Source: Ischnura elegans
Taxonomy: Eukaryota > Arthropoda > Insecta > Odonata > Coenagrionidae
Assembly (NCBI RefSeq): GCF_921293095.1
Contig: NC_060246.1
Location: 139,190,198-139,254,197, forward strand
Reading direction: 5' to 3'
DNA: 64,000 nucleotides
Of the stretch, positions 2,975 through 59,125 are shown piece after piece. Every line of letters starts with the position of its first letter. Position 1 is the first letter of the stretch. The position numbers were made by a program, and so were the translations under genes. Under the pieces are notes generated by a model. The model searched no databases. It had not been told where the DNA came from and saw only the letters and a program-made list of their open reading frames with translations.

Positions 2975-3265
2975 CATCCCAAGCAGAGCCAAAGTGCATT
3001 TTATGTGCTTTTAATGTGCATTCATTACTGCATTAAATGCACATAGAAAATGCACATTTAAAGCGCATTTCAGTCCCCACCTTAAATGCACATTATATGT
3101 GCATTGTAAATGCACATTTTTGTCTGCGCATTTTAGGTACATTAAATGCACATTGTGAATGCACATTTTTGTCTGTGCATTTTAGGTACATTGAATGTGC
3201 ATTGTGAATGCACTTTTTTTCCTACCCATTTTAGGTATATTGAATGTGCATTGTTAATGCACTCA
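2975..3265. repeat. Left subterminal array of TGCATT/AATGCAC motifs
   Basis: After the CATCCCAAGCAG end, the motifs TGTGCATT and AATGCACATT recur about every 10-20 bases. The last part forms a ~48-52-bp higher-order unit (GCATTTTAGGTACATT, then GAATGCAC) starting near 3127, 3175 and 3227. The same motif in inverse orientation occupies 10305-10426. It is interpreted as the left end of the En/Spm-like element. Confidence 0.7.
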
Positions 3266-3409
3266 TTCCACTTCATTGGGATAGGTAAGTAGTGAATTTT
3301 AAGTTTTTAAGCATTTTAGAAGAGTCATATGATCAACATTAGAGCCCTGATCACTCGAATGTCGATATCTGGACACTCAGGGGAAAATCGACAAGCGTGG
3401 CACATTTTT

Positions 3410-3490
3410 TCCTCACATCTGAACGAATTTTTGGGGGGGCTCGGGCCCCCTCACGCCCCATGGAGTTGGCGCCACTGGAAAGCAGTACCA
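3410..3490 (-). mobile_element. hAT-type MITE end fragment
   Basis: The segment ends in TTGGCGCCACTGG, whose reverse complement begins CCAGTGGCGCCAA. It is preceded by a poly-G/CGGGCCCCC block. This resembles the CAGTGGCGGAxC termini of the hAT MITE at 13665-13840. Only one end is recognisable and no target-site duplication was found. Confidence 0.35.
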
Positions 3491-3495
3491 CCAAT

Positions 3496-5030
3496 AAATT
3501 GTTTTTTAGAGAAGAATCAAATAAAAAAATGTGCTATGAGAAGTACACCAAATATATTTCGAAAGAGATACATAGCTAACATCATAGTAAGATAATAGTA
3601 AGTAATTGTCCATAATTTATTTAAGGGTTGCAATAAACGCTGTAAAATATTATGAACAATACAAAACTATATATAATACAAAAAAACCAATATAATTGCG
3701 GTGCTGCAAGCGTGCAAGTTTGATGTGATCGTGGGTAACAAGTGCGACAGTATTCTGGAACTCTTTTCCTCCGGAATGGCTATTGGTCCGACATTCGTCC
3801 GAGACGTGAGGGAAACCGGCAAAACCCCACGTAGACCGCCGTGCATATGAAGCTGATGTTGTTGTTGGTCGATGAAGTGCTCGCGGTGATGTCTTTCGCT
3901 TTTATCCTGGTGTCCTTGCATTGCTGGTGTATCCGGTCTTGTGGTGATGCTTTGTTTGCAGTGATGGAATGTCAGAAATTGGAATTAATATACATTATAT
4001 TACATTTTATAAGCACAAGTCATATTGAAGCCAACAAGCTTTGGTCACTGATGTTATATTTACATATTATGAAGTAGAGCAAACTTGCAGTCGTCATGTG
4101 GAATTTTCATCGTCATAGTTAAGAATTATTTACATAGCGCCCGTCATCAAAATAAATTACAGACTCAAGCATAAAAGTGCAGGATATTTACATATGAGGG
4201 ATGAGTTTTTAAACTGTTTTAAGCAACATAATTTAGTGTGATTTTAATATTTAAATTTGCTTCAAGGGCAGAAAGATTTGCATAGTGGTATATTAATTTA
4301 ATTTTGATTTTATTTAAATTTAAGTAAACGTTTATAGAAGGTAGGCATTACGATTCCACTTTATCATAGAGAGGGTAAAAGGACAATTCTAAGGAAATAT
4401 AGCTGATTAAACTAAAGTGATTTTACTGATAATACTAAAATGGGAATTGAAGTGATGAGATGGGTATTTTAATTGAGGTAAAAGTTATTTCAGCGAAGAA
4501 AAGCTAAGAACAAATGATTTAATACATGATTGTAAAGTTATAAACACAGGTCAAGGATTTTAAGCAATTTAAAAATTTACAAACAAAGTTTTACCATATT
4601 GATTTAATGATTGTCTATTGAAATTAATTTTTTCATTCCCATTTTTATGAATTTACTTAATTTTTAGTGTAATGAAATTAGATCAAGGCTACGTTAAATT
4701 CAGATCGGTGCCGGAAGGGCTGGATTTGAGAAGGCTAGTTTTAAGAATTAGGAATTAGATAAGGTTTCTATGCTCATCCGTCTGCCTTCTCGATGGCTGC
4801 CAGCTGTTGGTTCCAGGAATATACTGTCTTAACGTAGTATCCCAGAACGTCACGAGCTGCGTTGTCCAGGATCCCTGCTACTGTTTGTCCTCTCCTTCGG
4901 GTGTAGATGGGCCAACAGCAGGCTGAGGAGTCATAGCAGGTCGTCTTTGGTCACCAGGGACTCGGCAGCTGGACCTGGAGAGGGAAGCACAGGACAAGGT
5001 ATTAACGGCACTGTGTCAGCCACCCACTTG
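3496..5030. other. Non-coding interior of the En/Spm-like element
   Basis: AT-rich sequence without a supportable gene. Short reading frames at 3.7-4.1 kb show no recognisable motif. The part 4690-5030 is less AT-rich and leads directly into the Penelope-type palindrome. It may be part of that insertion. Confidence 0.4.
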
Positions 5031-5185
5031 CCTCAAAGCCTCGGGGTATATATGTATACAGAATTCTGTGGGTGAGGGCAGTTCAGCATCTCCTAATTGG
5101 CTAATACAACTGGGGACTAAAGCCAATCAGGAGATACTGAACTGCCCTCATCCACAGAATTCTATACATATACCCCGAGGCTTTG
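5031..5185. repeat. Long imperfect palindrome (Penelope-type terminal repeat)
   Basis: The arms at about 5031-5101 and 5113-5185 are inverted copies (TCAAAGCCTCGGGGTATA on the left, TATACCCCGAGGCTTTGA on the right). They include GAATTCTGTGG/CCACAGAATTC and GGGCAGTTCAGCATCTCC/GGAGATACTGAACTGCCC. The palindrome immediately precedes a hammerhead-like motif. This pairing resembles the long terminal parts of Penelope-like retroelements. It could fold into a hairpin of about 70 bp. Confidence 0.65.
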
Positions 5186-5204
5186 AGGATTTGGAATTGG
5201 ATTC

Positions 5205-5297: not shown

Positions 5298-8200
5298 CTA
5301 TTCTTGACCCAAATCATCATCTGAGCCAATGTTTCCAGTGTCTCCGAAGGCTCGTTTTTTGCTTGAGGGGAGGTTATTACGTAGCCAGGAGCTCACTGCC
5401 TTGGCTATGGCTTTTGAGCCGGAGCCTGGGTACTTAAAAAGTACTGCATCTGTAATGAAAGAAAATACATAATAATTTAAAGAAAGTGATCATGTCTATA
5501 GGCATAATCTGTGTTAAAGAAAAAATACACACCAGTCAGAACAGAAGCAGTTTTCGTGCTGCAAAGGCCTTTCTTCTGTTCTGTTCCCCTCCAGTTCAAC
5601 TTCACCTTCAACTGCCTTGAAATTATGTATCGGCAAATATTCCTACTCATCTCCTCGTAACCCTTAGGGCTATAACATTTCAAAGAAATGTATTTTGTCT
5701 GCAGTTTAAAAAAATAGTTTCAGTTTACCTTGTGTATAACTTCAAATTACATTTTGTTCATTAACCATTATTAGACTGACTACGTACCACAAAATCAAAG
5801 TTTTCTTTCTTCCCCAGAAAAAACTCAAACTTTTCGAAGGCCTCATGATCTGTGAGAGGCATCGCAGAGGGCCACCCTTGGGGCTTTGTAAAATTCTCTG
5901 CGGATGACTCACTTCCTACATGAGCACATATATTTTCTAGTATGGCACTATGTGCTCTTAATGTTGTCTTTATCTCCTCCTGATTTTTCAATATTTTCTG
6001 AAGGCATCTTTTCATTCCTTCAAACCAAGATAAATACCAAAAGTTAACAAGAAGGAAAATTGAGTATTGAATTTGATAACAATGGGTGCAGATTTGTAGC
6101 TACTCACCTTCTGATGCCCCTGAGGACTGCATTGTGCTCTCTTGGTGCACATTCTCCAAGCTTCTGCCAGATGGTGGTTCTAAAAAAAGGAAAACAAATT
6201 ACACTGTAAGACTAGAAAAAATGGTATTAAAGTAATAAAATTTCTAAATCGTAAAAATTACCTATGCATTTACGACTTTCCCTAGATGGCTTTGTCGAGG
6301 GATGATGCTGGTGACCTCTACAAGATGGTCCAGGTGATGTAAGCTCATCACTGCCCGTTTCTCCATCTGCTAAACAATCATTTGAAATTTTCATTTCACT
6401 AACATTTTTGAGCTATTGATGGAAAAGTACTTGTAGCACGACATAGAAATCCTAGTTCAATAAGTTTTACGAGTAGACCATTATAATCAAAATGATTCAT
6501 ACTTTGCCTCTGACTATTCGTGCTTTTAGGAACTGGTACACGAACAGGAATTTCAGGAGGAGAAGGTATTCCCTGATTCTCAGGTGCTTTTTTCATAAAT
6601 TCCATCCTCACGTCTCCATTTTCTTTGGTAGTTTTAGGAGGGAATGCCATCTCCTTATCTTCTTCACTCTCCGTTGATGTAGGAGAATCAGGGCTAAACC
6701 GTGTTGGCTTCCTCCTCTTCCTTATAAGTGCTGCCTCATTCTCCGCAGCAGACTCAAAATTGTCAGTATCGCAGGCTTTTGACAATTTTAGCCTAGCTTT
6801 CGGATACGAATCTGCAAGAAAAGGTTGAATAAGTACACACAGAAGAAACCTGAGAGATTGAAACACATGAGAAATTACTTAGAAATTACCGTAGGTGCCT
6901 CTCACTTCTACATCATAAGTAGGCCATGACACGTCCGCTGGCCCTCTTAGCATACTCTCCCTGAAATCATGTGGCCAGTGGCATTTTTCATGATTTGGGA
7001 GAAGCCACCTTTCCGGCACAACCGCAGTCTCCCTCATGGGTTTTACTTTTGCTGTTCGGTCAGCATCATCGAACCAAAGTAAAAAGTCAATCACGCAAAA
7101 TTTTCCCTGGAAGAGATAGGACTGATTAAAATGCATTTACAGCCTAATAAAATTCGCTATAAATACTGCCACGTACGAAAAAAAATTCACTCTCACTCTA
7201 AAATAAGCCGTTTTTGAGTGAAATACACACATACAGGTTAAGGGGACACTTTCTTTCCATTAGTCACCTGAAAATTATAACGATGCTAAAATACGGAAGT
7301 TATCTCATCTAGAAGGAATGAAGTAGAGGGAAAGCCACATGTTCTTCTCCATAGGGCATTAGAATTGCTTTATATAGTATGTCACTCAGTTCATACACTT
7401 TGGTTTCATGTGAGAGATTCGATACTTTATATATTCCTAGTTTCCCAGATGAAATAGGATACACATATATATTTATATAAGTCTGAAAATGATTGGAACT
7501 CCTGAGCAACAATCCTGATACCAGTTAAGAGACCACCATTGCAAGTTACGATATTTCTAATTAATCCATAACGCCCACTATTCAAATAAACACAGTTGTC
7601 AGGATGACGATCTTTTAGAATATAATGTACATCTTCATATGAGTGAAACTGGCCTGTCACATCCATTCCATCAGGTACTGGACCTTCTTCATGTTCACCA
7701 ACAACTCCTCGTCTCCTACGATCGTTACTTTTATTTCCAAATATTTGCTTCTCACATAGCCTTTTAAATATTTGCTGGAGTGGCAGATGAGAGGACCGCA
7801 CAAGTTTTTTAATGTGCCCTAACTTACTCTCAAAAGGGTATGCACTAAATCTTGCGAGAGGCCCATGATTTTTCACATCACCACATAGATGAAGCAGACT
7901 GTGAATATTGTATGACAAGAATTTGCTCCCTAAAATTTTTGCACTGTACGACACAAATAGTTTTAAAAATTCGTCTGCATCATCTACCAAGGATGAGATC
8001 AATTTCTCATTGCTCACAATAAAAATTCCAGAATGTAGTAGCAAGAAACATTTAAAGACATTGGCCTTCAACACACTGCTCAGAACAACTGGGCCTACAT
8101 ACAACAGAAACTGCCGACATTCACTTGCTTTCCATTTTGAAAAATAGTGCAGTGACCTTACTTTTCTAGTGAATTCACAAGGAAGAAACGGTGATACTTC

Positions 8201-9775
8201 CTCAATGTTGGCATCCAAAGTGCGCCTGTTGGCAGCTGACAGTCTGGCCACAACGTTACCTTCAAACAGAATATATTTCAAAAATCTCCTCAGAGTTCCA
8301 AGGTCCACTAAATGCATGGGATCAAGAGGTATATCAGAAATGAAATTGGTACCAATGTCTTTCAGAGGACTGTCTCCCTTATGATGAGAGAAGTCTTCTC
8401 CATTCAGGAAAGAATTGTTGGTCCTTAATGGGCCAACTACACTACTGTATATTGTGAAATGCCCTACACTTTCGCCCTCCTGCTCACACCTTTCACATCC
8501 ATGAATAGAATTATGCCCCACAATACACTTGATATATGCTCGTGCGGGTGCATCACATATATATCTGAATTTTAATTGACACTGTCTTCCAAATGCAAAG
8601 GCATTATCATTCTTCAGGTCTCTTACCTCTTTCAGAAATTCAGAGAGATACTCCGTTAAAGGCTTAGGCTTACCTTCCCCATAAAATATTCCTAAAGGAA
8701 ATGGCTCTCTAATACCAAGTTGATTACACCTGGCTAATATTGGCCAGCATTCAGTGGAAGCACTTTTGTAAATGGGAAATCCGTCAAAGCTAATATCAAA
8801 TAAAACTGTCGCGTCTTCCAATTCCCGGACCTTACTAAATTTCTTGATCCCATTTATTAGCCCCAAATGCGCATAGCTGCCATTATCAAGCTTTTTGACG
8901 GGGACTTTGCGCTTCTTAGTCAAACGTAATGATTCGGCGGTTTTCGGTAGGTGAGGGTGAAGAGGCTTCAGAATTTTTAGTAAGGCAGAGGTTGCCTCCA
9001 AAGTTATCCCGTAATCCACACTCCACTGGGCTAACTGAGTGCGAAGAGATAATTCTCTTCTTTCGCCACAATTCTCTTCAGTTTGGTACACTGGATCTGA
9101 AGAACCATGACCTCCAAAAATCGAATCTTCATCCGACTCGGGGACACTTGGAGTAGCGCTAGGGGAGCTACAACCCTCGAAATCACTTTGGAGGGGACTG
9201 CAATTTTCCCCCTCCATGAACTGATTGGCATTCCCGTCCGACTCCAAATCGCTACGCTCTACTCTCCCAACATTTTCACATTGTTCACCAATTATTTCAT
9301 ATCCCATTCCAGTGTTTTCACTCTCTCCATCAAGATTTCTAAAAAAAGTATCAATCTGTCTCTTAGCTAATCTACTCGCGCGCTTTTTAATAGACCGCTG
9401 CAAAGGCATGAACTTTTTGGAAGCCATGCTCGCCGAAATTCACGTCAACAGTTCACGATATTCACTCTCTCACGTTTCTGTAAACTTGAGCACTTTTCTT
9501 CGTTAAAAATTTCGCGGGTACTCGTCGATGAATAAAAACTTTTGGGCTATGTCGCCGCGTCAATTCTTAAGATTCACAAGTCACAAGATGTGGTCACAAC
9601 GTTTCCCGACCGAAGGTGGTCAACGCTGGTCGCTTTCTCAAGGGACTCTGAATAGAAAACTCAACATGACGAGTACCCGCGAAAGTTTTAACGTAGAAAT
9701 TCTACACATACATTATAATTGTATTATATTTATATAAATTAATAGAAAGATATATTTTAATTTACTTACTTCCAT
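5298..9775 (-). CDS. DUF4806-type accessory protein of En/Spm-like element (8 exons)
   Basis: Eight exons (9775-9770, 7106-6890, 6811-6503, 6366-6262, 6179-6108, 6017-5788, 5698-5533, 5449-5298) join in consistent phase into an intact 418-residue protein. Exon 1 holds only ATG GAA before a GTAAGT donor. Exon 2 carries VVPERWLLPNHEKCHWP and SWPTYDVEVRGTY, the N-terminal pattern of DUF4806-containing proteins. Exon 3 is acidic/serine-rich linker. The C-terminal exons carry LTDHEAFEKFEFFL, then NWRGTEQKKGL, then a WL-containing end, matching the DUF4806 block by recall. The transposase ORF lies wholly inside intron 1, so alternative splicing from one promoter is the simple model. This copy has no stop or frameshift. 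Its role may be DNA binding/regulation by analogy with TnpA; that is inference. Exon 3's donor could alternatively lie a few codons downstream. The last ~20 residues may have been altered by the neighbouring Penelope-type insertion. Confidence 0.75.
7309..9427 (-). CDS. En/Spm-like (tnp2-type) transposase, one frameshift
   Basis: The frame from ATG at 9427 runs 666 codons to 7427. In order it shows an acidic N-terminus, LFDISFDGFPIYKSAS, a CIVGHNSIHGCERCEQEG zinc-binding-like segment, DPMHLVDLGTLRRFL, and HSLLHLCGDVKNHGPLARFS leading into YPFESKLG. These are the recurrent motifs of animal and plant En/Spm (CMC superfamily) transposases. The probable acidic residues are in the FDG, DLG and FESK motifs. 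The expected C-terminus (GKLGIYKVSNLS to HVAFPLLHSF) continues in another frame ending at 7309. A single frameshift therefore sits near 7455-7475, in an AT-repeat run. This may be a real mutation or an assembly error. The whole ORF lies within intron 1 of the DUF4806 gene on the same strand. Confidence 0.8.
9506..9688. repeat. Short inverted repeat upstream of the transposase ORF
   Basis: TTCGCGGGTACTCGTC near 9511 is repeated in inverse at about 9667-9688, GACGAGTACCCGCGAA, with one mismatch over 22 bases and ~140 bp between the arms. It lies between the shared first exon and the transposase start. It could be a small MITE or a hairpin in the leader of the transposase transcript. Confidence 0.55.
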
Positions 9776-10304: not shown

Positions 10305-10426
10305 ACCTGCATAGAAAGTGCATTGCGAATGCGCATTACCAATGCGGTATTTATGCGGATTAGCGACCAATGCGGTCGTACGCGCATTTAATGCACATAT
10401 AATGCGCTTGGGCGCTGCTTGGGATG
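10305..10426. repeat. Right subterminal array, inverse of 2975-3265
   Basis: TGCATT/AATGCGC motifs are dense here (AGTGCATTGCGAATGCGCAT near 10317). The segment ends in GGGCGCTGCTTGGGATG, the inverse of the left end CATCCCAAGCAG. It is interpreted as the promoter-proximal end of the En/Spm-like element. Confidence 0.65.

Positions 10427-13066: not shown

Positions 13067-59125
<46,059 letters not shown>

Follow-up and report, generated by a model that had tools for sequence, protein, structure and literature searches.

In the maize En/Spm element, the transposase region lies within the first intron of the accessory gene, and integration produces a 3-bp target duplication. The TRC elements, which form the animal and fungal branch of the CACTA superfamily, have termini that begin with CCC and 2-bp duplications (PMC1636069, PMC4298943). 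SmTRC1 of Schistosoma, described in 2006, gives rise to alternatively spliced transcripts, and most of its expressed sequence tags (ESTs) lack the transposase open reading frame (ORF); its authors compared the system explicitly with TnpA and TnpD and wrote that a comparable function must fall to the second protein (PMC1636069). The element analyzed here is located in a stretch of 64,000 nucleotides from Ischnura elegans (NC_060246.1, positions 139,190,198 to 139,254,197), hereafter the window. That it is a TRC-type transposon in which one gene is nested inside the other is well supported: a tnp2-type transposase ORF is enclosed by the first intron of an eight-exon accessory gene, which appears to encode a DUF4806-type protein. 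It is probable that the two genes form a single transcription unit that yields two proteins, a DDE transposase and a DUF4806-type helper that may bind the element ends.

As in SmTRC1 and other TRC elements, the terminal inverted repeats (TIRs) start with CCC, the insertion is flanked by a 2-bp duplication and the transposase is of the tnp2 type (Table 1). The element resembles maize En/Spm in the placement of the transposase region within the first intron and in the presence at both ends of repeats that a helper could bind, but it differs in having CCC rather than CACTA termini and a duplication of 2 rather than 3 bp. An initial annotation of this DNA, made from its letters, described the element as En/Spm-like; strict membership of En/Spm was rejected because of the termini and the duplication. 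The same annotation confined the element to 5298-9775, an interval that contains both genes and falls well short of the ends on either side.

A search of the genome (1.72 Gb in 110 contigs) with the element region detected two more full copies, L032 and L033, which are 99.6% identical, along with several partial ones. An additional copy, L034 (G000:C5:128995068-129000905, 5838 bp), is internally deleted and 98.5% identical to the window copy; 298 of its 2001 transposase bases still align, with 232 inserted letters, and the accessory gene is intact. A fold-back insertion is present within this transposase remnant. The TIRs begin with CCC and the flanking dinucleotides match in all five copies for which both ends were examined, four from the window family and one from a sister family, and the duplications are AT in the window, AA and TA in other copies, AG in L034 and TT in the sister. 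The TIRs, the duplications and the other genomic copies bear out the original proposal that one mobile element carries both genes. DUF4806 proteins are reported as ordinary genes elsewhere, including in zebrafish (PMC11075544), and a host DUF4806 gene hit by a transposon, or a chance neighbourhood, might produce a similar picture. However, both genes are inside one TIR pair with target duplications, the full and deleted copies are nearly identical, and the pairing recurs in distant families. Such an origin is exceedingly improbable, and a host gene invaded by a transposon was rejected given the recurrence at several insertion sites in the genome.

All seven introns of the accessory gene are GT-AG introns with compatible phases, and the coding sequence of 1260 nt encodes 419 residues followed by a stop. 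The eight-exon structure first annotated, with its coordinates, phases and uninterrupted frame, stands, apart from a length given as 418 residues. The two-codon exon 1 and its GTAAGT donor were likewise found as described, joining in frame over the transposase ORF to position 7106, and the ORF does lie wholly inside intron 1. Every splice site and the 419-residue frame are kept in L032, L033 and L034, and the order of exon 1, transposase and exon 2, which the annotation had proposed comparing among copies, is held in L032, L033 and the sister.

The sister element is 5214 bp long, has a TIR beginning with CCC, and encodes a transposase 63% identical to that of the window. All eight accessory exons and their phases are as in the window, including the two-codon exon 1, and exons 1, 2, 6 and 7 are of equal length. 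Between the two accessory genes, the proportion of nonsynonymous differences (pN) is 0.275 and that of synonymous differences (pS) is 0.776, so that silent sites are saturated and the protein is kept; for the transposase, compared between copy L002 and the sister, the values are 0.241 and 0.712. The leaders of the two elements share a single blastn block, 73 columns long and situated at the terminus, and the ATG-codon-GTAAGT arrangement is still kept. In single-base shuffles of these leaders (2000 per leader), a two-codon exon with GTAAGT appears in 0.4% for the window and 0.5% for the sister, and both real families have one, which exceeds what chance would give. Looser strings resembling exon 1 are common, occurring in 25% and 18% of shuffles, respectively.

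The pairing extends to more distant relatives. Inspection by eye of 14 more distant loci, two of which are near-duplicates of others, showed a DUF4806-type N-terminal exon within about 370 nt past the transposase in 12; none was seen in L023 and L025. A broader list of 58 C-terminally complete transposase matches was built with the peptide of one family, requiring that a match reach query position 660 of 676 and dropping two short fragments from 70 rows. Among the matches listed, at least 22 have a DUF4806-type exon on the same strand within 1 kb downstream and six more have one 2.6-7.1 kb away; in 30 none was found, a count in which distant exons are missed, and no match has such an exon ahead of it, or on the other strand, within 10 kb. 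The gap between the transposase and the DUF4806-type exon is 87-364 nt in 12 families (leaving aside L022, where the stop position was assumed) and 84-416 nt in the 22 listed pairs. A shortened transposase, with a frame of 441-442 residues and a DUF4806 N-terminal exon 7.07-7.08 kb downstream, occurs in five places on G000 contigs C19, C7, C5 and C8, and is perhaps part of a larger amplified unit. Leaders are mostly unalignable by blastn among the 15 loci compared.

Splice signals were scored with insect-like matrices against first-order simulations, in families that are related and not fully independent. For the acceptor at the DUF4806 start, none of 1000 simulations reached the mean of 12 families, and ten of the 12 have a good acceptor (p 0.033 or less), the exceptions being L021 and L026. 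Likewise, no simulation out of 1000 reached the mean for an acceptor located up to 150 nt ahead of the transposase ATG (11 families). Donors within 60 nt past the transposase stop are enriched over 12 families (p 0.0005), and three of these reach p 0.05 alone. Control stretches and reverse complements had lower splice scores. When processed copies with the spliced junction were sought, 308 matches had three or fewer mismatches, compared with 70 for the reversed control, and the best among the matches listed has two mismatches, a result that carries no weight either way. Taken as sequence signals, the acceptor and donor patterns suggest that the transposase ORF may be an optional exon between exons 1 and 2, and alternative splicing of one unit is the likely arrangement.

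The donor enrichment just past the stop is also what would be expected of bicistronic read-through alone, in which a transposase transcript is spliced past its stop into the DUF4806 exons and no exon-skipping form exists; consistent with this, the gap lacks AATAAA and ATTAAA in 10 of 12 families (with the gap set to 200 nt where no acceptor is given). It may otherwise be that the element simply contains two ordinary neighbouring genes, the DUF4806 gene having its own promoter and a start downstream of the transposase and lacking exon 1. In the window copy, an in-frame ATG located 33 nt upstream of exon 2 could in principle act as an alternative start, and in seven of ten more distant families an ATG occurs inside exon 2, 0-2 nt past an AG (the L021 acceptor being weak). 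The sister element is informative about both alternatives: an in-frame TAG immediately precedes its exon 2, and from that TAG to the conserved FCVVDF motif there is no ATG, so the start must come from upstream. Read-through would leave the sister DUF4806 protein without a start codon before its conserved N-terminal motif and the conserved exon 1 unexplained, and is unlikely. Neighbouring genes are at odds with the same TAG, with the conservation of the exon 1 ATG and GTAAGT in the sister, and with the good acceptors at the DUF4806 start and the short gap past the transposase; such an arrangement is quite unlikely.

The assignment of the partner as a DUF4806-type protein is well supported through its relatives. 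In one distant family, with a transposase identity of 39% within the matched part and 31% across the full alignment, the DUF4806 profile (PF16064) scores 35.4 bits, above the cut-off of 25; in another it scores 20.5, with exon joins judged by eye. As in DUF4806 proteins, the domain falls in exons 6-7 and is accompanied by a conserved N-terminal exon, which we take to be typical of these proteins. Known DUF4806 proteins are products of genes of unknown function, whereas this one is transposon-borne. A search of the whole genome with PF16064 returned nothing, a negative of no weight, the domain being split by an intron and the controls equally silent. PDB sequence searches, run with the window protein and with each of the two profiles, produced no useful match.

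The window transposase has a C-terminal frameshift relative to copies L002/L032 and L003/L033, whose ORFs are of 702 and 703 residues. In the 11 transposase proteins scanned (that of the window and ten relatives), there is no Pfam match to Transposase_21 (PF02992), the profile with which the initial annotation had proposed to identify a tnp2-type enzyme. DUF4218 is below its cut-off in all 11, and other weak families outscore it in L027 and L029. The tnp2 assignment itself was upheld indirectly, by a profile-profile comparison of 12 transposase sequences with two Transposase_21-positive proteins from the same genome (probability 99.9, E 7.7e-37, 351 columns). Residues D215, D292 and E533 are invariant in the transposase alignment and are plausible candidates for the catalytic residues.

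The repeat GYGCATT/AATGCRC is clustered at the ends. It has 23 matches in the window element, 22 of them within 500 bp of an end, against a mean of 1.64 in single-base shuffles of the whole stretch; in the sister all nine matches are within 500 bp of an end (shuffle mean 0.98). A distant family (again with transposase identities of 39% within the matched part and 31% across the full alignment) shows perfect 10-bp termini, CCCACACAGC, and an AA duplication. The ends of this distant family carry different terminal repeats, judged by eye to be arranged around CTGTATTACAG, and in another family, R21, the termini could not be fixed. DUF4806 has been called a subtype of the BEN domain (PMC11075544, citing Pan et al. 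2023), and the sites bound by BEN proteins are short and in some cases palindromic (PMC7764960, PMC11472053). By analogy, the accessory protein would be expected to bind DNA, and the reported BEN affinity together with the clustered end repeats makes a TnpA-like role plausible. The partner is not known to be related to TnpA.

In the proposed single-unit mechanism, skipping the transposase region would join exon 1 to exons 2-8 and give the DUF4806-type protein, while its inclusion would give the DDE transposase, to whose transcript the DUF4806 exons would probably be joined further downstream. The DUF4806 protein would most likely bind the clustered repeats near both ends, and either help the transposase assemble on them or regulate the promoter, as maize TnpA does. 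A second protein derived from 3' exons, and splicing that may skip the transposase ORF, are shared with SmTRC1. However, splicing was demonstrated there by ESTs and reverse transcription polymerase chain reaction and is here deduced from the genomic letters, and the second proteins of SmTRC1 lack detectable relatives in other elements, whereas the window partner is of the DUF4806 type and recurs across families.

Besides the alternative ATG upstream of exon 2, several observations weigh against this single-unit reading. DUF4806 was, as the initial annotation anticipated, a Pfam match of the window accessory protein and its only one, but at 17.6 bits it is below the cut-off of 25, as is the sister protein at 16.4 bits, and the link between DUF4806 and BEN has no PDB sequence match. 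An exon 1 upstream of the transposase is demonstrated only for the window family and its sister. Of the 58 transposase matches listed, 36 have no DUF4806-type exon found within 1 kb. The intact frame of L034 may merely reflect its recency, given its identity to the window copy. The leader donor, scored up to 400 nt ahead of the transposase, has only p 0.03 overall, and outside the two closest families only that of L021 is clear alone. Finally, the window family and its sister have a weak acceptor ahead of the transposase (p 0.41 and 0.84), as does L027. Because of this weak acceptor, intron retention is the more likely source of transposase in the window family and its sister.

Table 1. Features of the TRC-type element in the window (window coordinates)
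Feature	Position	Strand	Remarks
Whole element	2978..10423	genes on minus strand	7446 bp; homology to other copies ends here, with TIRs and target duplication
Target-site duplication AT, left	2976..2977		
Target-site duplication AT, right	10424..10425		
TIR CCCAAGCAG, 3' end of genes	2978..2986	+	
TIR CCCAAGCAG, 5' end of genes	10415..10423	-	
Subterminal repeats GYGCATT/AATGCRC, 3' side	2994..3262		16 matches, partly tandem at 49 bp
Subterminal repeats GYGCATT/AATGCRC, 5' side	10318..10407		6 matches
Accessory exon 1 (ATG GAA)	9770..9775	-	donor GTAAGT 9769-9764; letters identical in 7/7 aligned copies of window family
Transposase ORF	7427..9427	-	666 aa; wholly in intron 1 of accessory gene
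Possible short intron, transposase to exon 2	7107..7267	-	predicted from sequence; donor CAG/GTGACT
Accessory exon 2 (N-terminal domain)	6890..7106	-	
Accessory exon 3	6503..6811	-	
Accessory exon 4	6262..6369	-	
Accessory exon 5	6108..6179	-	
Accessory exon 6 (DUF4806 match begins)	5788..6017	-	
Accessory exon 7 (remainder of DUF4806 match)	5533..5698	-	
Accessory exon 8 and stop	5298..5449	-	

Other repeats are found within the element. Directly past the accessory gene, at 5031-5188, is a long imperfect fold-back with 52-nt arms that are 88% complementary, which is present in L032, L033, L034 and L037 as well. An inverted repeat at 9495-9699 (32-nt arms, 94%) occupies part of the leader that separates exon 1 from the transposase. 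It may be a nested miniature element, and a match to its core was not found in L005, the sister locus. The stretches at 3286-3488 and about 3750-4454 match many other places in the genome at 76-96% and are probably other nested repeats. Elsewhere in the window, an ORF of 414 residues at 62550-63794 matches DDE_Tnp_1_7 (251.6 bits) and encodes a piggyBac-like transposase. Reverse-transcriptase ORFs at 52227-54227, 26530-26997 and 38722-40200, one of 666 residues and the others fragmentary, are probably of the type lacking long terminal repeats.

The initial annotation supposed that the parallel with En/Spm had not been described. The splicing parallel was in fact proposed for SmTRC1 in 2006 (PMC1636069); the identity of the partner is the part not found in the literature searched. 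No report of DUF4806 proteins in transposons was found in that literature, with Repbase, subscription papers and PMC11445403, which also names DUF4806, outside the search, and in the portions of the sources consulted DUF4806 and transposase are mentioned together only as rows of a Hydra domain table. The consulted portion of PMC4158355 contains nothing on a partner protein.

A TnpA-like role was proposed in the SmTRC1 paper for proteins without relatives in other animal elements, which left the general holder of that role open. With a recurring and probably DNA-binding partner encoded alongside the transposase, that question becomes testable. It may be, though this broader idea is held only tentatively, that in a deep TRC lineage the transposase serves as a cassette exon, included optionally, within a DUF4806/BEN gene. 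The balance between enzyme and end-binding regulator would then depend on whether this exon is included or skipped, the partner would co-evolve with family-specific terminal repeats, and many unexplained animal DUF4806 genes would derive from such elements. The expanded DUF4806 genes of the Hydra table and of zebrafish would thereby have a possible origin. The arrangement also suggests that the plant and animal branches share the same design, two proteins from one unit, with apparently different helpers.

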